DNA of 64,000 nucleotides from Aequorivita capsosiphonis DSM 23843 (GTDB lineage: Bacteria > Bacteroidota > Bacteroidia > Flavobacteriales > Flavobacteriaceae). The notes under the pieces are model-generated. The model had not been told where the DNA came from, did no database searches, and saw only the letters and a program-made list of their open reading frames with translations. Positions within the stretch are counted from its first letter, which is position 1, and every line of letters begins with the position of its first letter. The position numbers and the translations under genes are program-made. Below, piece by piece: positions 16,074-60,849 of this stretch. The stretch is from contig NZ_AUBG01000020.1 in the NCBI RefSeq assembly GCF_000429125.1, positions 1 to 64,000 on the forward strand. Reading direction: 5' to 3'.

Positions 16074-16160
16074 AGACCTACAAGGCCTCCATCGTCGGTA
16101 ATACACTTCGACAAGCTCAGAACGCTGCCTTGCAGGAATTCCCCTTTGGGGGCTAGGGGG
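16074..16160. repeat. Compound dispersed repeat downstream of pheS
   Basis: Three repeat words are nested: ACCTACAAGG (16076-16085) with its partner CCTTGCAGGAA (16128-16138), CTTCGACAAGCTCAG (16106-16120) between them, and the C/G-rich unit CCCCTTTGGGGGCTAGGGGG (16141-16160) that abuts the pheS stop codon. Each word recurs elsewhere in the window or is common in Bacteroidota intergenic DNA. Confidence 0.75.
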
Positions 16161-16161
16161 T

Positions 16162-25493: not shown

Positions 25494-27159
25494 CTTTCTC
25501 TGAAATTTCAAGCTCTATGGAAGCTTCAATTCGTTTTTTGATTTCTTCGGCGTATTTGCCGTCGTCTTGATACACTATCAAAACTTCCTGCAAACCATTT
25601 TCCTGCGCGAAAAGCAATAATTCATAAGTGCTTTTCTTTTTCAAAACCTTCTTGTCTGAAACCTGTACGTTGAATTCGCCGTAAGCTTTTAAGCCTTTTA
25701 TTCCTTTTTCAGTTTCGAAATCATCGCGTTTTACGATCATATTTTTAGCGCCATTTTGCCCGAGATCATCTAAAACGGCATCCAGCGCGTTTTCTAAAGC
25801 GATGTCTTGTTTTTGGCTAAACCGCGTGGTTGAAACCATAATATAAAGCGGAGACTTCATTTCGCCATAGGTGAAATAGTCTTTTCCACTAACCTTGCTT
25901 TTATCTGCATTTTTAACTGGTGGTTCTACTCTTACAAGTACTTTTGGAGTTTCTAAAATAACTGCGGGACTTCCATATTCGCTTTTTATCCAGCGGCCTT
26001 CTACAAGTTCACGAAGGTCGTTTCCTAGTACTTTATCTTTTAAATTATCGAAACCAGCAATACTTCCGTAGATCACTCCCGCTAAAATAACGGCTACAAT
26101 GACGCCCGAAATACCCAAAATCCATTTTCTGCGTTTACGTCTTTTCTCCAGTTTTTCTAAATACTCTTGGTTTTCCAAAAGCTCTTCTTCAGTAGGTTCT
26201 GGAATAACTTCGTGAGTTTCGTTAATGATTTCCTCAATGGTTTTTCTATCAACTTCCGCTTGACCAGAAAGTTGGTTCATTTTAGCGAACTTCACTAAAT
26301 CGGCCCGTTTGAAAATCAAGTCTAACCTTCGGATGGTTTCTAAATCGAAGTCAAAACTTCCTGCGTCTTTGTGCATCATCAAGCGTGTGATAAGCTCTTC
26401 ACTGGTGCTCTCTAGCGCAGATTCATCAACTTCACGGTCTAGGTATCGTTTTACAATTTCTGTTAGACTACTATAGTATTCTTTGCTCTTATTTTCTTTT
26501 ATTAGTTGGCTATTGTCTAATGTTTTCAGCGCCACGATTGCTTCTTCATAAGGTGGCAATTGCTTTTCGGCAGCGTCTCTTCGTTTTTTTCTTCGGAATA
26601 GAAAAATGGCAATTCCGATAATGAGAAGAATAGGAATGAGCCAAGTGAGGAGTAACTTCCAATCAAAAGGTGGGCCTTTAACTTCCACCGCAGGTTTTAT
26701 GTCGAACATTTTCTGCTTGGTAGTGTCAATAACAACGTCATTCACTTCCACCATTATGGAATCGGTCAAAAATGCTTTTTTGTTGATAAAAATACGCTGT
26801 GGAGGAATGGTGAAGTGGCCGCTGTCAAATTGCGTTAATCCGTATTTTTTGATAAGTCGATACTTTGCACCTTCATAAGTTGTATCAGTTTCATAAGCTT
26901 CAATCATTTCCAAAGGCGCAAAAGTCTGCTCTTCTGGAAAAATAACCACATCAGTAGAATCTGCCTGAACGTTTATGGTGTAAAGAATTTCCTCACCAAT
27001 TTTGATTTTTGTGGAATCGATGGAGGAATTTACTTGTGCGTTTGCGAAGAAAGAGGAAAGAAGAAAGAGAAAAGAGAAAAGTGCATGGATAGTATACCTA
27101 CAAGGTCTTGAAGACTTTGCAGGAAAACCAATATTAATTTGTTTTAAATCTATTATCAA
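25483..27159 (-). CDS. BatD-like membrane protein of the Bat operon
   Basis: 558 codons from a TTG at 27159. After the N-terminal hydrophobic stretch ALFSFLFLLSSFFANAQ come strand-rich extracytoplasmic residues (STKIKIGEEILYTINVQ), a TM (LLLTWLIPILLIIGIAIFLF, about 166-185), a cytoplasmic helical domain, a second TM (ILGISGVIVAVILAGVIYG) and a C-terminal alpha/beta domain. A gene of this type is standard between DUF58 and batA in Flavobacteria. The start is doubtful: no in-frame ATG exists and the first 25 codons run through a dispersed repeat. An out-of-frame ATG at 27086 would give a normal signal peptide if the following T-run were one base longer. Confidence 0.85.
   Translation of the reverse strand: MIIDLKQINIGFPAKSSRPCRYTIHALFSFLFLLSSFFANAQVNSSIDSTKIKIGEEILYTINVQADSTDVVIFPEEQTFAPLEMIEAYETDTTYEGAKYRLIKKYGLTQFDSGHFTIPPQRIFINKKAFLTDSIMVEVNDVVIDTTKQKMFDIKPAVEVKGPPFDWKLLLTWLIPILLIIGIAIFLFRRKKRRDAAEKQLPPYEEAIVALKTLDNSQLIKENKSKEYYSSLTEIVKRYLDREVDESALESTSEELITRLMMHKDAGSFDFDLETIRRLDLIFKRADLVKFAKMNQLSGQAEVDRKTIEEIINETHEVIPEPTEEELLENQEYLEKLEKRRKRRKWILGISGVIVAVILAGVIYGSIAGFDNLKDKVLGNDLRELVEGRWIKSEYGSPAVILETPKVLVRVEPPVKNADKSKVSGKDYFTYGEMKSPLYIMVSTTRFSQKQDIALENALDAVLDDLGQNGAKNMIVKRDDFETEKGIKGLKAYGEFNVQVSDKKVLKKKSTYELLLFAQENGLQEVLIVYQDDGKYAEEIKKRIEASIELEISEKDGK
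27097..27125. repeat. CCTACAAGGTCTT/AAGACTTTGCAGG palindrome
   Basis: Two arms meet almost without loop (ACCTACAAGGTCTTG, AAGACTTTGCAGGAA). It lies in the apparent N-terminal coding region of the BatD-like gene and separates its TTG start from the signal peptide. Confidence 0.8.
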
Positions 27160-27176
27160 AATTATAAATTTTAATA

Positions 27177-27239
27177 CCTACAAAATCTTATAGACCTTGC
27201 AGGAAACTCACGTTTTCCCCTTTCGGGGGTTAGGGGGCT
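27177..27239. repeat. Second ACCTACAA repeat followed by a C/G-rich unit
   Basis: ACCTACAAAATCTTATAGACCTTGCAGG (27177-27204) is a sibling of the copy 80 bases away; CCCCTTTCGGGGGTTAGGGGGC (27217-27238) follows and abuts the stop codon of the DUF58 gene, exactly as near pheS. Confidence 0.8.
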
Positions 27240-28103
27240 TTACCTTCTCTTAAAATACCCTAATAATTTTTTCACATAACTCTCGTCAACTCTAGAACTC
27301 AAAGCTCCTGCGCCACTTTTGGTAAAGGATTCTACGAAATAATCTACGCGTTCACGATGATAACCATAATATTGGTTCCGCACGCTTTTTGAGCCTGTAT
27401 TAACCAATAAAAGTTCTCCAGTTTCTTGGTCTTCCATCTGTATCATCCCCAAATTTGGTATGTTTTCTTCGGCTTTATCATAAACCCGTATTCCTGTTAA
27501 ATCGTGCTTTCTTGCGGCGATCTTCAAGGTGTTTCGGTAATCATCTGCAATAAAATCTGAAAGCACAAAAACAATGGCTTTCTTTTTCATAACACCGCTT
27601 AAAAACTTGAGTGCATTGGCAATATCGGTTTTGTTACTTTTTGGTTTGTGCTCCAGCAATTCTCGAATGATACGAAGGACATGCGATTTCCCTTTTTTCG
27701 GTGGAATATAAAGTTCGATTTCATCTGAAAAAAGAATCAATCCGGTTTTATCATTGTTTTGCATCGCCGAAAAAGCAAGGGTTGCGGCTATTTCAGTAAT
27801 TATTTCATTTTTGAACTGTTCTTGTGTTCCAAAATATTCGGAACCGCTAATATCAACCATCAGCATTAATGTTAGTTCACGTTCTTCTTCAAAAACTTTT
27901 ACAAAAGGTTCATTGTAGCGGGCAGTAACGTTCCAATCGATATTACGAACGTCATCGCCAAATTGGTACTGGCGTACTTCGCTAAACGTCATCCCACGAC
28001 CTTTAAAAGTACTGTGATACTCGCCACCAAACACGTGATCGCTCAAGCGTCGCGTTTTGATCTCGATCTTACGTACTTTTTTAAGAAGTTCTTTAGTATC
28101 CAT
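27240..28103 (-). CDS. DUF58 domain protein of the Bat operon
   Basis: 287 residues. Soluble protein with the DUF58 signature GRGMTFSEVRQYQFGDDVRNIDW (shown in part: FGDDVRNIDWNVTARY, 49-63) and an internal VWA-like fold with DISGS (84-88). It is the standard partner of the MoxR ATPase, whose gene lies upstream with a 101-base gap containing a repeat. DUF58 proteins probably link the ATPase to the membrane VWA proteins BatA and BatB. Confidence 0.94.
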   Translation of the reverse strand: MDTKELLKKVRKIEIKTRRLSDHVFGGEYHSTFKGRGMTFSEVRQYQFGDDVRNIDWNVTARYNEPFVKVFEEERELTLMLMVDISGSEYFGTQEQFKNEIITEIAATLAFSAMQNNDKTGLILFSDEIELYIPPKKGKSHVLRIIRELLEHKPKSNKTDIANALKFLSGVMKKKAIVFVLSDFIADDYRNTLKIAARKHDLTGIRVYDKAEENIPNLGMIQMEDQETGELLLVNTGSKSVRNQYYGYHRERVDYFVESFTKSGAGALSSRVDESYVKKLLGYFKRR

Positions 28104-32607: not shown

Positions 32608-32615
32608 TATATTTG
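32608..32615 (+). promoter_or_regulatory. Candidate -7 box of the desaturase gene
   Basis: TATATTTG fits TAnnTTTG exactly and lies 26 bases before the ATG at 32642. The -33 element is not clear. Confidence 0.45.
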
Positions 32616-32641
32616 TGGTTACTCCGAAAACTAAAAACACC

Positions 32642-33631
32642 ATGGCACTTAAAAACATACGACTAGAAGTAATGCAAACCTTGGAAAAGGAAGTTGATAG
32701 CTATATTGATCAATACCTTATACCTCCTGAAAAAATTTGGCAACCGACTGATCTTCTGCCGGACTTTCAGAAAGAGAATTATATGGATGAAGTGACGCAA
32801 CTTCGTGAAGAGGCCAAAGAATTGGGCTATGATTTTTGGATAGTCCTAGTAGGCGATATGGTTACAGAAGAAGCATTGCCAACTTATGAAAGTTGGTTGA
32901 TGGATATGGAAGGGATAGACCAACATGGTCGTAATAGCTGGAGCACATGGATTCGACAGTGGACAGGCGAAGAAAATCGACATGGCGACACATTGAATAA
33001 ATATTTATATTTATCTGGAAGGGTGAATATGAGAGAAGTAGAAATAACCACACATCATTTAATCAACGACGGTTTTGAAGTAGGAACAGGTCGCGATCCT
33101 TATAGAAACTTCATCTATACAAGTTTTCAAGAACTTGCGACGAATGTTTCGCACAGTCGGGTGGGGAAAATAGCCAAAAAACAAGGAAATAAATCGCTTG
33201 CTAAAATGTGTAATCTTATTGCTGGAGATGAAATGCGTCATCATTTGGCATATCGTCACTTCGTAAAAACCATTTTTGAATATGACGCTAGTGAAATGAT
33301 GATTGCTTTTCAAGATATGATGCAGAAAAAAATTATCATGCCAGCTCAAAATCTACGTCAGAGTGGGGGGAAAATGGCTTCAGCTTTTGATGATTTTAGT
33401 AATGCAGCACAGCGTTTAGGGGTTTATACTACATACGATTATATTGATATTCTTGAAAAATTGAACGCTCATTGGGAAATTTCAAAAATTACTAATCTTA
33501 CAGATGAAGCTGAAAAAGCGCGTGATTATTTAGTTAGATTACCATCAAGAATGCTTCGAATTGCAGACCGTATTAAGATTCCAGAAGATGCGAATCGTTT
33601 TAAATGGGTTGAACCGAACGGGGTAGTGTAA
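32642..33631 (+). CDS. Acyl-ACP desaturase (ferritin-like diiron)
   Basis: 329 residues from the ATG at 32642 (a GTG at 32615 coincides with the promoter box and is rejected). Introduces a double bond into an acyl chain on ACP (stearoyl/palmitoyl-ACP desaturase family). Diiron ligand motifs are EENRH (110-114) and DEMRHH (near 199), both in helices as in the plant enzyme. Suits the need for unsaturated lipids in a cold or marine habitat (inference). Followed by a C/G-rich repeat and a bidirectional terminator. Confidence 0.93.
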   Translation: MALKNIRLEVMQTLEKEVDSYIDQYLIPPEKIWQPTDLLPDFQKENYMDEVTQLREEAKELGYDFWIVLVGDMVTEEALPTYESWLMDMEGIDQHGRNSWSTWIRQWTGEENRHGDTLNKYLYLSGRVNMREVEITTHHLINDGFEVGTGRDPYRNFIYTSFQELATNVSHSRVGKIAKKQGNKSLAKMCNLIAGDEMRHHLAYRHFVKTIFEYDASEMMIAFQDMMQKKIIMPAQNLRQSGGKMASAFDDFSNAAQRLGVYTTYDYIDILEKLNAHWEISKITNLTDEAEKARDYLVRLPSRMLRIADRIKIPEDANRFKWVEPNGVV

Positions 33632-33654
33632 GCCCCCTAACCCCCGAAGGGGGA
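33632..33654. repeat. C/G-rich palindromic unit
   Basis: GCCCCCTAACCCCCGAAGGG plus GGA starts on the base after the desaturase stop codon. It is the reverse orientation of the unit at 27217-27238 and 39938-39959. Confidence 0.85.
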
Positions 33655-33680
33655 ACTTATAATGGAAACTATTATAATAT

Positions 33681-33718
33681 AAAAAACCTCAAAGATCTTA
33701 GAGACCTTTGAGGTTTTT
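33681..33718. terminator. Bidirectional terminator between desaturase and ALDH genes
   Basis: AAAAAACCTCAAAG and CTTTGAGGTTTTTT form a long stem with short central loop and have A/T tails on both sides, serving the convergent genes. Confidence 0.85.
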
Positions 33719-33729
33719 TATATTACCGT

Positions 33730-33759
33730 CGCCTCCCCTTCGGGGAGGTCGGGAGGGGA
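33730..33759. repeat. CCTCCCCTTCGGGGAGG unit at the ALDH stop
   Basis: A variant of the C/G-rich family (palindrome 33732-33748, then TCGGGAGGGGA). It abuts the TAG stop of the aldehyde dehydrogenase, the same placement seen for pheS, DUF58 and batA. Confidence 0.8.
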
Positions 33760-36702: not shown

Positions 36703-37809
36703 ATGGTTAAAACTTTAACATATTTATTTGCGATATTTCTTCTTTTTGGATGTAAAAACGAAGAAAAACGCTCTTCTAAGGAGCCAATTTCTTCTGAAAA
36801 TTCAAAAAATACTGCTGAAAACTTCGGAATAGTCATTCATGGAGGTGCGGGAACCATCCTTAAAAAAAACATGAGCGATTCGCTGGAAGATGCCTATAAA
36901 GCAAAATTAAAAGAAGCCATTTCCGTAGGACATGAAATATTAAAAAATGGCGGATCTTCGCTAGAAGCGGTTACAAATACAATTAATGTGATGGAAGATT
37001 CTCCACTTTTTAATGCGGGAAAAGGAGCGGTATTCACGCATGATGGTTCCAATGAGCTCGATGCTTCCATTATGGATGGAGCTACACTCAACGCCGGCGC
37101 AGTGGCTGGAGTAAAACACGTTAAAAACCCGATAGATCTTGCCCGCGATGTAATGCAAAAAAGTGAACACGTCATGTTGTACGGCTCGGGAGCAGAAGAA
37201 TTTGCGCAAACTTTGGGCTATAAAATGATGGATACTTCCTATTTCTATACTCAAAATAGATATGAGTCTTTACAAAGAGTTTTGGAGAAGGAAACGGCCC
37301 TTCAATACGTCCGCCGCGACGGACACTCAGGGACCTTAGCCAAGTCAGAAATAAATGACTTTGAAGACCCATATATCAAAAACTCAAAATTTGGAACTGT
37401 GGGTTGTGCAGCCCTCGATAAACATGGAAATCTTGCCGCAGGAACTTCAACTGGAGGAATGACTAACAAACGCTGGAACAGAATAGGCGATGCCCCAATA
37501 ATTGGTGCGGGAACGTATGCCAATAACGCTACTTGCGCGGTTTCGTCAACTGGTTGGGGAGAGTTTTTTATCCGTTCCGTGGTGGCTTATGATATTTCTG
37601 CCTTAATGGAATATAAGGGAATGAGTTTACAAGAGGCCGCAAGGGAAGTAATTCAGAAAAAAGTTCCTGCGCTTGGTGGCGATGGTGGCATTGTCGCAAT
37701 TGATAAAGATGGAAATGTGGCGATGGAATTCAATACGGCTGGAATGTATCGAGCAACGATGAACTCCGACGGGGAGTTGGTGATTGGGATTTATAAGGAG
37801 AACGAATAA
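36703..37809 (+). CDS. Isoaspartyl peptidase / L-asparaginase (T2 family) lipoprotein
   Basis: 368 residues. Lipobox LLFGC near residue 17 predicts a periplasmic lipoprotein. N-terminal nucleophile hydrolase: IVIHGGAGTI starts the alpha chain and autocleavage should occur before Thr232 in KFGTVGCAALD; GNLAAGTSTGGMTNKRWNRIGD and GAGTYANN complete the active site. It removes isoaspartyl residues from peptides or hydrolyses asparagine. In the linker before the cleavage site, residues 203-208 (VRRDGH) are encoded by a near-perfect palindrome of a dispersed repeat. Confidence 0.94.
   Translation: MVKTLTYLFAIFLLFGCKNEEKRSSKEPISSENSKNTAENFGIVIHGGAGTILKKNMSDSLEDAYKAKLKEAISVGHEILKNGGSSLEAVTNTINVMEDSPLFNAGKGAVFTHDGSNELDASIMDGATLNAGAVAGVKHVKNPIDLARDVMQKSEHVMLYGSGAEEFAQTLGYKMMDTSYFYTQNRYESLQRVLEKETALQYVRRDGHSGTLAKSEINDFEDPYIKNSKFGTVGCAALDKHGNLAAGTSTGGMTNKRWNRIGDAPIIGAGTYANNATCAVSSTGWGEFFIRSVVAYDISALMEYKGMSLQEAAREVIQKKVPALGGDGGIVAIDKDGNVAMEFNTAGMYRATMNSDGELVIGIYKENE
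37309..37324. repeat. In-frame palindrome inside isoaspartyl peptidase
   Basis: GTCCGCCGCGACGGAC is a 16-base inverted repeat with one mismatched pair. It resembles TCCGCCGCGGCGGA at 24464-24477 and is read in frame as VRRDG. Confidence 0.6.
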
Positions 37810-37867
37810 ATACAAATTGCAAACCTCTCCTATTTCCTTTACTTTTAAAACTTCCAAAATTTCCTAT

Positions 37868-40800
37868 ATGAAAATTCTTCAGCGCCTAATACTTATATGT
37901 TTAGTGATTTTTATCGCTTCTTGTAATGATAAAGACAAGCATTCCGCAACCGATAACCTCTTTAAATTTAAAGATTACATTTCTTATAATACTTATGGAA
38001 ACAAATCTATAACCACAGACATTCGTATTGAACTAGCAAAACCATTGGATCAATTTGAGATGACTCAGGAACTCTCTGCTGAGGATTATTTTAGTATTTC
38101 TCCGAAAACGACGGGTAAATTGGTGGTTGAAAACGGGAAAACTTTAATTTTTCAGCCTTCAGAAAATCTAAAACCAGATACCGAATATTCGGTCACCGTT
38201 AAGTTAAACAAGTTATACGATGATATTTCAAAGGAATTTAAAACCTATACTTTCAGTTTTCATACAGTAGCGCCAAATTTTAAAGTGACCCTTGGCAAAC
38301 TGCAATCTTACAGCAAGCAAAAGCAATATATAGATGCAGACTTAGAAGCATCGGATGTTATTTCTTATGAAAAAGCGACGCAATTAGTTTCTGCGACTCA
38401 AGATGGAAAAAACCTGAAATTGAAATGGGCTTCTAAAGACAATGATGCGCGATATTATAATTTCACAATAGACAGTATTGATCGAAAACTGGAAGATTCC
38501 GAAATTTTAATCAAATGGGACGGCAAACCCATTGGCGCCGAAAATAAAGGCGAAAACACTTTTAAGATTCCAGGACAAAGTAATTTTACAATCGTTGACA
38601 TTAGTAGCACTTTAACGCCTGCGGCACTTTTAAGCATTAATTTTTCTGATCCACTAAAAGAAAATCAAGATTTTGCGGGCTTGGTAACTATTGAAAAAAC
38701 AAATAATCTGCGATATGAGGTTGACGGAAACGTGTTGAATGTTTATCCGCCAAATAGAATTGTAGGCAACGTAAAAGTCACTGTTTTTACGGGAATTAAG
38801 AACACAGAAGGAATCGGTTTGAAAAAGGAATTTTCAGAATTGGTTTCTTTTGAACAATTAAAGCCTGCCGTTAGAATGATTTCTAAAGGCGTAATTCTTC
38901 CAAATTCTGCTTTATCCCCGGTTTATTTTGAAGCAGTAAATCTTTCAAAAGTTGATGTTCGGGTGATTAAAATTTATGAGAATAATGTGCTCCAATTTCT
39001 TCAAAACTATGATCTAAACGATCCCAACACCTATGATATTCGTCGTGTTGGAAGGCGAATTGCCAAAAAAACCATCGAACTCAAAAACGTCGATTTAAGT
39101 GATAATGGAAGCTGGAAAGCTTATGCCATTAATCTTTCGGAATATTTTAAGGCAGATCCTGGCGCCATTTATCAGTTGGAGCTTAGTTTTAAACAAGATT
39201 ATATTACCTATGATTGTGCTGAGACCGCTTCCACAGAAAATAGCAATGAAGAAGAGGATGACTATTATGATTATCAACAGGACTCTTACTATACCGATGA
39301 CTCTTCAGAAGAAGAAATCCGTGAACAGCGCTATTGGGATAATGAAATTTACCGATGGCGAAACTACTCTTATAATTGGGAACAACAGGACAACCCGTGC
39401 AATCTTGCTTATTACAACAGTGATCGTATAGTTACCGCAAATATTTTAGGATCGGATTTAGGACTAATCGTAAAAAAAGGGAATAATAAATCGTATCAGT
39501 TTTTTGCTACCAATCTTATTTCGGCAAAACCAGAAGGCGGTGTAAAAATCAAGCTTTTCAATTTTCAGCAGCAATTGATTGAAACCGTAACTACTGAAGG
39601 CGATGGATCAATTTTATATGATAGTGATATAAATGCTGCTTTTGCAGTGGCGCAGAAAGGAAACAACTTTGCGTATGTAAAATTGGAAGACGGAAATGCG
39701 CTTTCAATGAGCAATTTCGATATTTCTGGAAAAGAACTTCAAAAGGGATTAAAAGGATACACTTATACTGAACGTGGCGTTTATCGTCCTGGCGATAGTA
39801 TTCACTTAACTTTTGTGCTAAACGACATTGCAAACCCACTACCCAAAAATCATCCCGTTACACTTTCAGTTACAGATGCCCGCGGAAAATTAGTGCAGCG
39901 CAGTGTATTAAACACAACTAATTCCGCAACAGTGGTTCCCCCTTCGGGGGTTAGGGGGCTGGAGGGATTTTACTATTTCCCAATCTCCACAGATCCATCC
40001 GCTCCAACTGGAAATTGGAATGCCACAATCACAGTTGGAGGTGCGCAGTTTAGCCACACCTTAAAAGTGGCAACAATAAAACCAAATCGTTTAAAAATTA
40101 AACTTGATTTTAATGACGAAATTCTCGACGCTACAAAACCGGTAAAAGGAATGGTAAGTGCGATGTGGCTTCACGGTTCTCCTGCTCGTAATCTTAAGGT
40201 TGATATGACGGCGACACTTCGTGCAAGCAATTCGGCTTTTCCAAAATTTCCAAAATACAATTTCATTGATCCAATTAGAAGTTTTAATGAGGTGGAAATC
40301 CCTGTTCTGGATACGCAACTTTCTACGGAAGGCAGCACTTCTTTTAGTAAGAATCTAGAAGTTGGGAAAAACGCGCCGGGAATGTTGAAAGCTACTTTTC
40401 TGACGAAAGTATACGAAGGTGGCGGTGACTTTTCAATGGATATATTTTCGAAGGATCTAGCGCCGTTTTCACATTTTGTGGGGTTGAGGTCGCCTGAAGC
40501 TGGGCGTTACGGTTCTTATTTTACAGATGAAAACACAACTTTTGATGTTATTTCTGTAGATGCACAAGGAAATCCCACCGCTAATCGAGATCTTGAGGTA
40601 AAAGTTTTTCAGATTGAATGGCGTTGGTGGTGGAATCGCGGTTCAGACAATCTTTCCTCTTATGAAAATTCAACCGTTCACAAGCCAGTGAAAGAATTCA
40701 ACATAAAAACCGATGCCAGCGGCAAGGGAAAATTCACTGTTAATATTCCAGAAGAGGAAGGAGGAAGATATTTAATTAGAGTGATCGATAAACAATCTGG

Positions 40801-43471
40801 TCACGCTACAGGGCGAACCACTTATTTCTATAGAAACTGGTCGCAGCGACCAAGTGATGGAGATTCAGAAAGTGCGAAAATGCTCGTCTTTTCTGCAGAT
40901 AAAGAAAAATATAAAGTTGGTGACGAAACCGTTATAACTTTTCCTTCGGGAAGCGATGGGCACGCTTTAATTAGCGTGGAAAATGGAACTGAAGTTTTGG
41001 AAACACATTGGATTGAAACTCAAAAAGGCGAAACCAAAGCTACTATTAAACTTACTAAGGAAATGTCACCGAATGTTTATGTGAATATTTCGCTACTTCA
41101 GCCACACAATCAAACAAAAAACGATTTGCCTATGCGTCTTTATGGCGTTATTCCAATTACTGTCGAAGATCCTTCAACCATTCTTCACCCAAAAATCTCG
41201 ATGCCTGATGTGTTGAAACCTGAGGAGAAATTCACCGTAAAAGTTTCCGAAGAAAACAAGAAAGCTATGACCTATACTTTGGCAGTTGTAGATGAAGGTT
41301 TGTTGGATTTAACCCGTTTTATGACTCCTGGAATTCACGAGGCTTTCTACATTCGGGAAGCCCTAGGCGTAAAAACTTTTGATATGTTCGATTATGTAAT
41401 TGGTGCGTATTCTGGCAGCGTGGATAATATTTATGCAATTGGCGGTGGCGATGCGGCTTTGGGCGCAAAGAATAGAAAAGCCGACCGATTTAAACCAGTT
41501 GTAAGATATCTAGGTCCCTTCCATCTTGCCGCTGGAAAAAGCGCAACTCACGATATTTTGATGCCGAATTATATTGGTTCAGTTAGAACGATGGTAATTG
41601 CCGGCGATAATTCAAAAAGCGCTTATGGAAATGCTGAAAAAACTACACCTGTACGTACACCTTTAATGGTACTTGCTTCACTTCCACGGAAATTATCTCC
41701 GGGGGAAACAGTTACATTACCCGTTACCGTTTTTGCGATGGAGAACAAAGTTAAAAATGCTACCATTACTGTGAAAACAGGCGAAGCCTTGAAGCCGATC
41801 AATGGTTCTTCAAAAACTGTTACTTTCAGTTCTCCAGGGGAACAAATTGTAAATTTTGAATTCGAAGTGCTTCCAACTGATAACTTTCAAACTATTGAAG
41901 TTACAGCTTCTGGAAACGGAGAAAAAGCGAGCTATAAAGTGGAAATTGATGTGGAAAATCCAAATCCTATTTCACGAAAGTCAACTAATTATACGCTGGA
42001 CTCAAATGCTTCGGAAACCATAAATTTTGAAACTTTTGGCGTTCCGGGAAGTAATACTGCAATGCTTGAGTTTTCGACTTTACCGCCGATGGATTTTGGG
42101 AAACGAATGGAGTTTTTAATCCATTATCCGTATGGATGTTTGGAACAGACTACGTCTACCGCATTTCCGCAATTGTATTTAGCTGATATTTTTGATATTC
42201 CATTTGATAAAAAGCAGAATATTGAGAAAAATGTAAAGGCCACTATTGAACGTTTGGGAAGATTTCAACTGTCCAACGGCGGACTTTCCTACTGGCCAGG
42301 AGAACGTGAGGCTGATGAATGGAGCACTACCTACGCAGGTCATTTTATGTTGGAAGCCAAACAAAAAGGTTATGCGTTGCCTATAAGTTTTGAAAACAAT
42401 TGGCTTATGTATCAGCAGAATACTGCGCGGCAATGGCGAAATAGTTATGCGGTTTACAACTCCAGTTTAACTCAGGCATATAGACTTTACACCTTGGCCT
42501 TGGCTGGAAAACCGGAGCTGGCTGCAATGAACCGCCTTCGTGAAAGCAAGGAATTGAGCAACGATGCCAAATGGCGTTTGGCCGCAGCTTATGCTTTGGC
42601 AGGAAAGAAAAATGTTGCTGAACAGATTGCACAAACGGCGAATATAAATTTTGTTCCACAGAAATCTGATTATTACAACTATGGTTCCCCATTTAGAAAT
42701 CGTGCTATGGCTTTGGAAACCTTGGTCTTATTGGATAATGCGAAACAACGTGATTTAGCATTGTCGGTCGCAAAAGATTTATCATCTAGCCGCTGGTATA
42801 GTACGCAGGAAACATCGTATGGGTTAATTGCCTTGGCCAAAATGGTTGAGAAAAATGGAGGAAAAGCAATGGACCTTACCTTTACAAATGGTGGAAAATC
42901 GGTTACCGTTAAAACCGACCGTGCCATTGCACAGCGCGATATTTCGTTTGTGATGGGAGGCAATTCTGTTTCGGTGAAAAATAATAAGGCCAATGTAGTT
43001 TACCTAACACTATCGCAACAAGGAAAATTACCATTAGGCGAAGAACTTGCCGAACAACGGAATCTTTCTATAAAATCGCAATATCTGGATGGCGCTCGAA
43101 AGCCAATTGATGTTACAAATTTGCGACAAGGAACGGAGATAATTGCAGAAGTGAGTATTACCAATACTTCTAACGATAGGATAAACAATGTAGCCTTGAC
43201 GAAAATATTCCCAAGTGGTTGGGAAATCGTAAACACCAGTTTTAGTGAATTGGGCGGTGGTGCAAAAAGTGACGCGCGTTATACGGATATTCGCGACGAC
43301 CGTGTGAATTTCTTTTTCGATTTAAATAGAAATGAAACGAAAATTTTCACAATAAAATTGAATGCTTCCTATTTAGGAACCTATTATTTACCGGGAACTC
43401 AGGTTGAGGGAATGTATGACAACTCGTATTATACGCGAAACAAAGGAATGTGGGTAAGGGTTGAATTATGA
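37868..43471 (+). CDS. Alpha-2-macroglobulin family lipoprotein with thioester
   Basis: 1867 residues from the ATG at 37868 (an earlier in-frame ATG at 37784 overlaps the previous gene and lacks a signal). Lipobox IFIASC (Cys near 18). Domains: N-terminal MG-like strands, MG2 around residue 620 (GYTYTERGVYRPGDSIHLTF), bait-region/MG middle part, and a thioester domain with GCLEQTTS, Cys1424 to Gln1427 forming the thioester. Such proteins (YfhM type) trap proteases in the periplasm and normally pair with PBP1C. Here pbpC is the fourth gene downstream. A C/G-rich repeat encodes residues 691-698. Confidence 0.95.
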   Translation: MKILQRLILICLVIFIASCNDKDKHSATDNLFKFKDYISYNTYGNKSITTDIRIELAKPLDQFEMTQELSAEDYFSISPKTTGKLVVENGKTLIFQPSENLKPDTEYSVTVKLNKLYDDISKEFKTYTFSFHTVAPNFKVTLGKLQSYSKQKQYIDADLEASDVISYEKATQLVSATQDGKNLKLKWASKDNDARYYNFTIDSIDRKLEDSEILIKWDGKPIGAENKGENTFKIPGQSNFTIVDISSTLTPAALLSINFSDPLKENQDFAGLVTIEKTNNLRYEVDGNVLNVYPPNRIVGNVKVTVFTGIKNTEGIGLKKEFSELVSFEQLKPAVRMISKGVILPNSALSPVYFEAVNLSKVDVRVIKIYENNVLQFLQNYDLNDPNTYDIRRVGRRIAKKTIELKNVDLSDNGSWKAYAINLSEYFKADPGAIYQLELSFKQDYITYDCAETASTENSNEEEDDYYDYQQDSYYTDDSSEEEIREQRYWDNEIYRWRNYSYNWEQQDNPCNLAYYNSDRIVTANILGSDLGLIVKKGNNKSYQFFATNLISAKPEGGVKIKLFNFQQQLIETVTTEGDGSILYDSDINAAFAVAQKGNNFAYVKLEDGNALSMSNFDISGKELQKGLKGYTYTERGVYRPGDSIHLTFVLNDIANPLPKNHPVTLSVTDARGKLVQRSVLNTTNSATVVPPSGVRGLEGFYYFPISTDPSAPTGNWNATITVGGAQFSHTLKVATIKPNRLKIKLDFNDEILDATKPVKGMVSAMWLHGSPARNLKVDMTATLRASNSAFPKFPKYNFIDPIRSFNEVEIPVLDTQLSTEGSTSFSKNLEVGKNAPGMLKATFLTKVYEGGGDFSMDIFSKDLAPFSHFVGLRSPEAGRYGSYFTDENTTFDVISVDAQGNPTANRDLEVKVFQIEWRWWWNRGSDNLSSYENSTVHKPVKEFNIKTDASGKGKFTVNIPEEEGGRYLIRVIDKQSGHATGRTTYFYRNWSQRPSDGDSESAKMLVFSADKEKYKVGDETVITFPSGSDGHALISVENGTEVLETHWIETQKGETKATIKLTKEMSPNVYVNISLLQPHNQTKNDLPMRLYGVIPITVEDPSTILHPKISMPDVLKPEEKFTVKVSEENKKAMTYTLAVVDEGLLDLTRFMTPGIHEAFYIREALGVKTFDMFDYVIGAYSGSVDNIYAIGGGDAALGAKNRKADRFKPVVRYLGPFHLAAGKSATHDILMPNYIGSVRTMVIAGDNSKSAYGNAEKTTPVRTPLMVLASLPRKLSPGETVTLPVTVFAMENKVKNATITVKTGEALKPINGSSKTVTFSSPGEQIVNFEFEVLPTDNFQTIEVTASGNGEKASYKVEIDVENPNPISRKSTNYTLDSNASETINFETFGVPGSNTAMLEFSTLPPMDFGKRMEFLIHYPYGCLEQTTSTAFPQLYLADIFDIPFDKKQNIEKNVKATIERLGRFQLSNGGLSYWPGEREADEWSTTYAGHFMLEAKQKGYALPISFENNWLMYQQNTARQWRNSYAVYNSSLTQAYRLYTLALAGKPELAAMNRLRESKELSNDAKWRLAAAYALAGKKNVAEQIAQTANINFVPQKSDYYNYGSPFRNRAMALETLVLLDNAKQRDLALSVAKDLSSSRWYSTQETSYGLIALAKMVEKNGGKAMDLTFTNGGKSVTVKTDRAIAQRDISFVMGGNSVSVKNNKANVVYLTLSQQGKLPLGEELAEQRNLSIKSQYLDGARKPIDVTNLRQGTEIIAEVSITNTSNDRINNVALTKIFPSGWEIVNTSFSELGGGAKSDARYTDIRDDRVNFFFDLNRNETKIFTIKLNASYLGTYYLPGTQVEGMYDNSYYTRNKGMWVRVEL
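39938..39959. repeat. C/G-rich repeat in frame inside alpha-2-macroglobulin
   Basis: CCCCCTTCGGGGGTTAGGGG plus GC is the same unit as at 27217-27238, read here as PPSGVRGL (residues 691-698). It lies between the strand-rich NATVV-like segment and FYYFPISTD, in a probable surface loop. Confidence 0.85.
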
Positions 43472-58530: not shown

Positions 58531-60849
58531 ATGCGAAATCTACCTATCCTAATTCTATCGATTTTCTGTTTCAGCGGATATTCACAAACTCAAGAAGTAG
58601 TTCTCATTCCAAAACCACAACAAATGGAAGTTCACAACGGAACTTTTATTCTTGATAAAAACACAAGTTTCTTTTTTGAAACTGAATTTGAAATCGCCGG
58701 AAACTTCTTTCAGAAATTTCTTCAAAATGGCGCTGGATTTCAGCTTTCTAAGAAATCAAAAAACAAGGCTCAGATAGTTATTGAAAAAGATGCAAGTCAG
58801 CCTTCAGAAGGTTATTCTTTAGAAATTTCAGATTCAAAAATTGGTATTAAAGCAAGTGATGCCAGCGGTGCATTTTATGCTATTCAAACTTTAAGACAGT
58901 TGCTTCCACCAGAATTGGAAAAACAAAGCCCCCTAACCCCTAATGGGGGAAATAAAAATTTGTCAGTTCCACAATTGACCATTACCGATTTTCCAGAATT
59001 CCAATACCGTGGAATGCATTTGGACGTTGCCAGACATTTTTTCGATAAAGAATTCGTAAAGAAGTACATCGCAAATCTCGCGCTTTTAAAAATGAATACG
59101 TTTCATTGGCATCTTACGGATGACCAAGGTTGGCGTATCGAAATTAAACAATATCCAGAGTTAACAAAAAAAGGTGCTTTTCGTGAGGAAACACGAATTG
59201 GCCATTACGAAGACAAACCAGAAACCTATGACGGCAAGCGCTACGGTGGATTTTATACGCAAGAAGACATAAAGGAAGTAGTTGCTTTTGCCGCCACACA
59301 AAACATAACCATCATCCCAGAGATCGAAATGCCAGGTCACGCGCAAGCTGCTATCCATTCGTATCCTGACTTGGGCTGTACTGGCGAGCAGATTCCGGTA
59401 GCTACAACTTGGGGCGTATTTGAGGATATTTTTTGCCCGAAGGAAGAAACTTTCACCTTTTTGGAAAATGTTTTAAGTGAAGTTATGCCTTTGTTTCCTG
59501 GGGAATATATTCATATTGGCGGCGATGAAGCTCCAAAATTAAGATGGAAAAATTGTGAACATTGTCAACAATTGATAAAGGATAAAAATTTAAAAGATGA
59601 AAATGGTTTGCAGAGTTATTTCATCCATAGAATTGAAGAATTTGTAAACAGCAAAGGCAAGAAAATTATAGGCTGGGATGAGATTTTGGAAGGTGGTCTC
59701 GCACCAAATGCAACAGTAATGTCTTGGCGCGGAATGCAAGGCGGCATTGATGCTGCCAAGCAAAAACACGATGTGATTATGACGCCGGTTTCCCACGCTT
59801 ATTTCGATTATTATCAAAGTGAAAATTTGGATGAACCTACAGCAATTGGCGGATTTCTTCCCTTGAAAAAAGTGTATTCGCTAAATCCAATTCCGCACGA
59901 ATTGACTGAAGAAGAAGGAAAATATATTCTCGGCGCCCAAGCCAATTTATGGACAGAATACATTCCAACCGAAAAACAAGTGGAGTATATGGTTTTTCCG
60001 AGAATCCTTGCAATGAGTGAGGTTGTGTGGAGCGGTCCTTCCCAAAATTTTGACAAGGATTATCCCGATTTCTTTTCTCGAGTGGAAGTTTTTATGAAGC
60101 GTTTGGATGCTTTGGATATCAATTACGCCAATTATTTATACGAAGTTGAAGGCAAAATCCTGAAAAAAGATGGCAAACCTGCCGGCCGGACAGGCGGGGT
60201 TTATTACGAAATGACCACACCTACTAAAGGAAAGGAAATAAGATATTCCCTAAATAATTCTGAACAAAAAAAGTATTCCCAGCCAATTTTAATTGAAAAA
60301 GATTCCAAGATTACCGCAAACGTGTTTAAAGATGGCAAAAAATTGGGGCGTGACTTTTCCGAAGCAATAAAATATCACAAAGCAATTACAGGGAAAATTG
60401 CAATCAACGTTGAACCAAATCCGGCGTATGCGGCAGGTGGAAAAGAAGCCTTAATCAACGGAATTTCAGGAAGCGACAAACGCTACGGCGATAAGGAATG
60501 GTTAGGATTTTGGGGTGATGATTTGGAAATAACAATCGATCTGGGAAAAGACACAGAAGTGAAATCTTTAAAAACCCGATTCTTCAATTCGCCAGGAGTA
60601 TGGGTTTATTCCCCGAATGAAATGATTGTCTCCTACGAGAATTCCAAAGGAGAAGAAGTTTCCATTTCAACAAAAATAAAAGCTGAAAACGATAATTTAA
60701 TATACGTGGAGGTAGATTTAGCGAAGAACAAAAATTTGAAACCTAGATATATAAAATTGACCATTCCAAGTTACGGAATGATTCCTGATGGCTTGCAAGG
60801 TGCGGGTCATAATGCTTGGACGTTTATAGATGAAATAGTTGTTGAATAA
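58531..60849 (+). CDS. GH20 beta-N-acetylhexosaminidase
   Basis: 772 residues; signal peptide ending YSQTQ near residue 20. GH20b domain (25-150), catalytic TIM barrel with Asp332-Glu333 in HIGGDEAPK, FHWHLTDDQGWRIEIK and EIEMPGHAQAA, and C-terminal CHB/F5-8-type beta domains. It hydrolyses terminal GlcNAc/GalNAc. Two dispersed repeats are read in frame: codons for residues 133-140 (SPLTPNGG), between the GH20b and catalytic domains, and 550-557 (PAGRTGGV), after the barrel. Translation probably coupled to the mannosidase gene. Confidence 0.95.
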   Translation: MRNLPILILSIFCFSGYSQTQEVVLIPKPQQMEVHNGTFILDKNTSFFFETEFEIAGNFFQKFLQNGAGFQLSKKSKNKAQIVIEKDASQPSEGYSLEISDSKIGIKASDASGAFYAIQTLRQLLPPELEKQSPLTPNGGNKNLSVPQLTITDFPEFQYRGMHLDVARHFFDKEFVKKYIANLALLKMNTFHWHLTDDQGWRIEIKQYPELTKKGAFREETRIGHYEDKPETYDGKRYGGFYTQEDIKEVVAFAATQNITIIPEIEMPGHAQAAIHSYPDLGCTGEQIPVATTWGVFEDIFCPKEETFTFLENVLSEVMPLFPGEYIHIGGDEAPKLRWKNCEHCQQLIKDKNLKDENGLQSYFIHRIEEFVNSKGKKIIGWDEILEGGLAPNATVMSWRGMQGGIDAAKQKHDVIMTPVSHAYFDYYQSENLDEPTAIGGFLPLKKVYSLNPIPHELTEEEGKYILGAQANLWTEYIPTEKQVEYMVFPRILAMSEVVWSGPSQNFDKDYPDFFSRVEVFMKRLDALDINYANYLYEVEGKILKKDGKPAGRTGGVYYEMTTPTKGKEIRYSLNNSEQKKYSQPILIEKDSKITANVFKDGKKLGRDFSEAIKYHKAITGKIAINVEPNPAYAAGGKEALINGISGSDKRYGDKEWLGFWGDDLEITIDLGKDTEVKSLKTRFFNSPGVWVYSPNEMIVSYENSKGEEVSISTKIKAENDNLIYVEVDLAKNKNLKPRYIKLTIPSYGMIPDGLQGAGHNAWTFIDEIVVE
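58928..58950. repeat. C/G-rich repeat in frame in the hexosaminidase gene
   Basis: GCCCCCTAACCCCTAATGGG plus GGA is the inverse orientation of the unit at 39938-39959, with an altered loop (CCTAATGG instead of CCCGAAGG). It encodes PLTPNGG. Confidence 0.85.
60178..60199. repeat. CCTGCCGGCCGGACAGGCGG repeat in frame in the hexosaminidase gene
   Basis: A different palindromic family from the C/G-rich one, encoding PAGRTGGV. A relative (CCTGCCGGCAAGGCAGG) lies in the hairpin at 63012-63028. Confidence 0.7.

Follow-up and report, generated by a model that had tools for sequence, protein, structure and literature searches.

The window, a 64,000-nucleotide (64-kb) stretch of Aequorivita capsosiphonis DSM 23843 (contig NZ_AUBG01000020.1), contains an alpha-2-macroglobulin (A2M) gene at 37784..43471 on the forward strand. 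The ORF comprises 1895 aa from TTG, with the likely start at ATG 37868, and its Pfam domains are bMG3, MG2, bMG5, bMG6, A2M_BRD, A2M, TED_complement and bMG10. According to Pfam and an AlphaFold model, the MG2 domain (residues 657-762; 39752..40069, +) contains a loop with an insert. Here a palindromic 25-base stretch, TTCCCCCTTCGGGGGTTAGGGGGCT (39936..39960, +), of which positions 39938-39959 read CCCCCTTCGGGGGTTAGGGGGC, runs in frame and encodes PPSGVRGL. The initial annotation placed this peptide at residues 691-698 with the frame kept, which holds with the ATG 37868 start and corresponds to residues 719-726 from TTG 37784.

The same annotation proposed that the insert occupies a surface loop. 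In the AlphaFold model of residues 545-770 (mean pLDDT 71.7 and pTM 0.46, with an alignment of 25 rows only) the loop 168-182 (segment numbering) has pLDDT<50 and lies between the strands 159-166 and 185-191, with PPSGVRGL at 175-182. In the alignment to the solved YfhM (4rtd), 13 query residues stand opposite gaps at the loop, in two pieces. The low-confidence loop between MG2 strands and the YfhM gaps fit the proposal, while the exposure of the loop is presumed rather than proved. The ordinary function of A2M is probably retained, with the insert being tolerated rather than used.

The palindrome is dispersed over the window and the genome. Exact copies of the 21-mer CCCCTTCGGGGGTTAGGGGGC stand at 39939-39959(+) and 33632-33652(-), and a copy with a single mismatch at 27218-27238(+). 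The second exact copy (33632..33654, -) lies directly after the stop codon of the ORF 32615-33631, and the third copy (27215..27240, +), with its mismatch in the 21-base core, lies outside ORFs of at least 80 aa. Two weaker copies, absent from the initial annotation, have three mismatches each: the one at 16141-16161(+) is again outside ORFs of at least 80 aa, and the one at 58928-58948(-) is read in frame as SPLTPNGG in the GH20 hexosaminidase ORF 58531-60849(+). None of 100 dinucleotide shuffles of the window gives a match. Thus the recurrence of the 22-base unit at 27217-27238 and, inverted, at 33632-33654, from which the initial annotation started, is confirmed, the 27217-27238 copy differing once within the 21-base core. 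The genome-wide scan that it proposed gives two exact copies and 30 copies at up to three mismatches in the own genome (4.04 Mb, 26 contigs), some of them within genes and in frame; a backward-pattern control gives 0 matches.

Other repeats are seen nearby. A second palindrome of similar build, CCTCCCCTTCGGGGAGGTCGGGAGGGG, is located at 33731-33757, near a terminator-like inverted repeat at about 33680-33721. Positions 27100-27215 contain a short repeat of another kind, ACAAGGTCTTGAAGACTTTGCAGGA / ACAAAATCTTATAGACCTTGCAGGAA, which is hinted at also next to the 16141 copy. No Rfam family matches the window at the gathering score.

The consensus A[AG]TTCCCCCTTTGGGGGTTAGGGGGCTT is based on 105 distinct copies with 25-base flanks: the 30 of the own genome plus copies in 60 regions of five congeners (G006 13, G018 9, G026 9, G021 27, G016 2), chosen among the matches listed, with G016 only sampled. 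The element is built as C5-TTY-G5-TTA-G5-C, where both G5 runs are possible pairing partners of the C5 run. Stop codons stand in forward frame 3 and reverse frame 1 of the consensus, which leaves four of the six frames open. Forward frame 1 translates as PPxGxRGL and reverse frame 3 as xPLTPxGG, so that two open frames give mild, turn-like peptides, PP(S/L)G(V/A)RGL and SPLTPKGG.

The genus carries 383 A-type matches, searched with a close variant of the consensus and summed over 28 Aequorivita genomes (24 positive, 0 to 73 matches per genome, with 73 in A. todarodis), with 0 matches of the backward-pattern control in the same 28. Across the family Flavobacteriaceae, 23 of 199 genomes contain matches with no more than two mismatches, 21 of 197 outside the genus. 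By place, the 105 copies comprise 46 intergenic, 34 overlapping an ORF 3' end, 7 at a 5' end and 18 internal ones, where ORFs of at least 120 aa were considered and the longest was taken, so some of these ORFs may be spurious. The 52 copies from 40 regions of six other genera, two of which (G073 and G099) were only sampled, divide into 30 intergenic, 9 at 3' ends, 6 at 5' ends and 7 internal. In both samples the element is mostly intergenic or near gene 3' ends. Some copies are paired in inverted orientation at a spacing of about 50-150 bases, as at G006:C2:42325/42429. In a region of another genus (G099:C21:63700-66700), same-direction clusters are spaced by about 100-280 bases, in contrast to the scattered copies elsewhere.

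This placement raises the explanation that the element is kept for a role in DNA or RNA, such as a terminator, an mRNA end, a pausing site or a protein-binding site, and that the coding copies are by-products. Besides the 34 copies at ORF 3' ends, 17 of which supply an Ala-Pro-stop protein ending by manual count, it is favored by positions that are partly common between species: for 14 of the 30 copies in the own genome, the congener sample shows a counterpart at roughly the corresponding place under a lenient test (within 90 bases). However, the predicted A-type hairpin (z -0.5 and -1.5) is no stronger than those of shuffles, and its stem is not followed by a T run in the A-type consensus. 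The z values for the B and C types found in A2M loops (see below) are -0.4 and -1.8, and only the composite loop L041, with -2.6, stands out. The orientation of the copies inside genes is mixed, and the family carries the element patchily, which speaks against an essential role. We therefore regard such a role as unlikely.

The A2M loop was compared over the genus. The 56 A2M loci reduce to 37 distinct genes, and 25 genus genes have a readable loop; by script it is not readable in L056, L060, L088 and L090, the first two of which belong to other genera and show no element. A palindromic element is present in the loop of 16 of the 25 Aequorivita genes. Five carry the A type (L031, the window's own gene, L032, L033, L038, L044), three the B type (L043, L045, L048), five the C type (L035, L050, L051, L052, L053) and three are composites (L037, L041, L049), with nine element-less loops (L034, L036, L039, L040, L042, L046, L047, L057, L059). 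The A2M loops read in other genera and lineages contain no element; those of L078 and L082 are longer and unrelated.

The window allele LNTTNSATVVPPSGVRGLEG (20 residues) is 9 residues longer than the element-less LSSQNSAVSKG of L034 (11 residues), with the difference at the repeat and with similar flanks. An insertion of 8-12 residues at the repeat, absent in relatives, had been foreseen, and the 9 extra residues, the nine of 25 genus genes without an element and the element-less loops of other genera agree with it. None of the repeat-free homologues read has the same residues at this place, which had been named as the observation that would speak against insertion. On a gene tree made without the loop (29 rows, five labels) the loop type changes at least 14 times; the bootstrap of this tree is unsettled, with 12 of 26 inner branches drawn open, and the outgroups L054, L055, L058 and L085, which have no element, are left out of it. 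Insertion into coding DNA is thus supported, but a single fresh insertion is unlikely, since elements are present already on deep branches of the genus. For the same reason the A2M insert seems to have arrived long ago and to have undergone exchange, replacement or loss in the meantime.

The DNA of the C type is itself dispersed, with 28 matches in 17 of the 28 genomes, 7 inside A2M by position and 21 outside. No B-type loop occurs outside A2M in the loci examined, so that the B types may be altered A types. Two further observations concern single genes. The A2M of L057 (G010:C2:251122-256757) is in two pieces (query residues 11-1128 and 1151-1894), by a frameshift or an assembly error. In A. 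viscosa (L051; G009:C18:53399-53752) the A2M match is preceded, at a distance of about 330 bases upstream, by a match to a Y1 transposase.

A2M is one of many host proteins. The copies sampled include 17 in-frame internal placements, with orthologous sites counted once and with two of the placements close together in one LeuRS loop. The two mild frames, sorted by eye, are used at 15 of the 17 (binomial P 0.001 vs one half). One of the two placements outside them is in an ORF of 171 aa (L197) that may be spurious. Ten host ORFs were profiled: AspRS, LeuRS, IleRS, MnmE, MetH, GH92, HisH and HisB score above the curated cut-off, and an E2 acyltransferase and a histidine kinase below it. The Pfam-scanned hosts are A2M, GH20, an HI0933-like flavoprotein, NamZ and a HisH-like glutaminase. 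Several in-frame copies may stand in one protein, at least three in the MetH of G021 and three, perhaps four, in the LeuRS of G193.

In these other proteins, as far as the alignments tell, the element often replaces native residues with little net change in length, and copies lie at the same site in different genes. The HI0933-like flavoprotein has PP(L/S)GVRGL in 7 of 27 genes, while a native tip like DAKGKTILESNG, of near-equal length, is found in most others. On its tree the element rows are not one clade, a single clade is not rejected (P 0.26), and the sequence changes only locally. One of its genes (L177) carries a different palindromic composite. In the GH20 hexosaminidase of the window (58531-60849) the element is present in 4 of 10 rows, of which the own gene and L140 are close and L134 and L136 have 4-5 changes by eye; L133 shows a worn element.

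AspRS demonstrates how the element can be carried with a domain. A CPLTPxGG-type sequence is found in 6 of 27 genus genes and in 4 of 28 genes of other genera, where most others have GELNxVAQHKD; the 28 come from the best 30 of 149 matched family genomes, two of them genus members, and are not a random draw. All 10 element rows (L318-L322, L344, L288-L290, L292) are mosaic genes with a foreign-type GAD segment, common across genera, on a native core: identity to native congeners is 45-69% in this segment and 75-98% elsewhere. The element forms the left edge of the exchanged segment. On the core tree Aequorivita is one clade (100), the element rows are scattered with nine changes and their union in one clade is rejected (P 5e-5). 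On the tree of the GAD segment (92 columns) the ten element rows group together as a clade (98), but Aequorivita does not (P 0.001). This disagreement indicates that the element moved between genera together with the domain. Independent insertions at the same site in different genera, suspected because the genes are only ~82% identical, were dropped as an explanation, since the GAD segment is shared along with the element. In the solved AspRS 6wom, a similar GAD segment has HELNDLVKGKDF in place of the element, hence the element is not part of that GAD type as such.

In A2M the loop alleles are also exchanged between species by recombination, which explains part of the changes of loop type. 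The genes of A. xiaoshiensis and A. sinensis (L044 and L049) agree at 97% of positions, but at 65% within the loop window, with smaller dips elsewhere (87 and 91%), and the differing tract ends at a repeat common to both. L045 and L048 are alike at 84% overall, yet share 159 identical aligned bases spanning the loop. By window (39 in total), the mean pair identity at the loop is 70%, the lowest apart from the first window (61%), the others having 77-87%.

It could be that protein segments are swapped at the palindrome as at a joint, which either serves as a recombination end point or marks one, with the repeat at the seam. The AspRS element at the edge of a GAD segment that is one clade on a scattered core and the L044/L049 tract that ends at a common repeat speak for this reading. 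The left/right agreement of pair distances with 100- and 150-base windows also points this way, since it is lowest in A2M at 80-100 bases upstream of the loop. At the loop, however, the agreement (partial genes excluded) is at the 10th percentile with these windows and at the 23rd-33rd with longer ones, and the step statistic, with three partial genes still included, is at the 30th percentile. The 29 identical tracts of at least 80 bases are spread over the whole A2M gene and one of them lies over the loop, which speaks against a recombination hotspot there, though the minimum just upstream leans the other way. Moreover, L044 and L049 differ more than usual in other windows too, the HI0933 change is only local, and 6wom combines a similar GAD segment with another sequence at its edge. 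We consider it improbable that the palindrome serves as or marks such a joint. The broader claim, that Flavobacteriaceae exchange loops and domains (A2M loops, the AspRS GAD) with end points at the palindromes or promoted by them, is likewise improbable; if it is true, a short dispersed repeat shapes modular protein evolution.

How the element might move was considered as well. Neither a target-site duplication nor a mobilising gene was found. A strict REPIN or REP moved by a RAYT (Y1) transposase would account for the size, the dispersal, the location at gene ends and some inverted pairs. Y1 transposase genes are present in 19 of the 28 genus genomes, with 55 matches. However, none of the 33 Y1 loci examined among these (about 1.5 kb on each side where the contig allows) has an A-type copy, the copy number per genome does not correlate with Y1 genes (Spearman 0.12, P 0.55), and a GTAG or CGTC tag is absent from the base frequencies of the 105 copies and their 25-base flanks. 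On these loci and counts the Y1 transposase was rejected as the mover, and a strict REPIN is a very unlikely identity of the element. One Y1 locus (L109) has a bare CCCCCTTCGGGGG hairpin. The counterparts of 14 of the 30 own copies in congeners, under the lenient test, suggest that movement is slow or ancient and that inheritance and recombination account for much of the present pattern.

It is most improbable that the A2M loop is selected for variety through exposure to proteases, phages or hosts, with the repeats merely supplying new sequence, since the low pair identity of the loop and the exchange of different alleles between species, which favor this, are set against AspRS, LeuRS, MnmE, MetH and the HI0933-like protein, expected cytoplasmic enzymes that carry the same elements in the same way and make an outside pressure unnecessary.

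We suggest that a short palindromic family has spread in Aequorivita and, patchily, in other Flavobacteriaceae, that its copies are tolerated in loops and that the A2M loop has been rewritten repeatedly; we hold this reading as a whole to be highly probable. The family, built as C5-TTY-G5-TTA-G5-C, presumably once moved as an element. Its copies would survive inside genes at loops or linkers, as four of the six frames are open and two give mild, turn-like peptides, and their effect there is likely neutral. Early in the genus the element was probably already present in the MG2 loop of A2M. Later on, other elements, losses and homologous recombination across species boundaries have rewritten the loop.

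In-frame palindromic inserts are best known from obligate intracellular Rickettsia. Intragenic palindromes are described both there (RPE) and as REPs, including cases in tRNA synthetases and stop codons at gene ends (PMC3733652). Like the Aequorivita element, RPEs are dispersed palindromes read in frame inside many unrelated protein genes. The host phylum is different, however, and, compared by description only, the Aequorivita core has 25 bases (8 residues), while RPE-1 is described as longer. The GTAG/CGTC REPs (Di Nocera et al. 2013) are 20-40 bp palindromes, mostly intergenic and near 3' ends, which supply stop codons; PMC3733652 also reports some in-frame copies within enzymes, tRNA synthetases among them, a same-site case (recB), and CGTC repeats in Bacteroidetes. 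The Aequorivita element resembles these REPs in being a short palindrome with many dispersed copies, a bias to intergenic positions and 3' ends, stop codons and some in-frame copies. Compared with intragenic REPs as described there, it differs by having neither the GTAG/CGTC tag nor, where tested, a link to Y1, and by different elements in one loop of congeners, near length-neutral replacement and carriage with an exchanged domain. Since both tag and RAYT link are absent where tested, we do not file it as a GTAG/CGTC REP.

REPIN/RAYT systems, as outlined in PMC8049555, likewise show short dispersed palindromes and some inverted pairs, but for the Aequorivita element no RAYT association is found at the 33 Y1 loci. 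In the REPIN model given there, a gene entered by a REPIN is taken as destroyed. PARCELs (PMC2996958) also comprise coding DNA with dyad symmetry and a patchy distribution; they are tandem 25-residue amphipathic repeats, whereas the Aequorivita elements are single units of ~8 residues or short composites. Two Flavobacterium genomes are stated to have thousands of predicted REPs, of kinds left unspecified in the passages of PMC12306157 that deal with them. Among the titles and abstracts listed from the open PMC literature, none concerns coding repeats of such a kind in Flavobacteriaceae, and neither the turnover of different elements in one loop nor travel with an exchanged domain was met in the parts of that literature surveyed. 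Repeats inside genes are thus already known from other bacteria, and the Aequorivita family and its turnover in one loop seem to be undescribed.

The repeats add a new sequence family of in-frame palindromic inserts, in Flavobacteriaceae and so outside Rickettsia. For annotation, genes that end in Ala-Pro-stop or start with a PPLGARG-like sequence may have repeat-derived ends. The acceptance of the same short peptides by AspRS and LeuRS shows where foreign peptides are tolerated. Last but not least, the A2M loop offers a natural series in one loop of one genus, with no insert, three simple classes and composites, from which gain, replacement, loss and transfer can be read.
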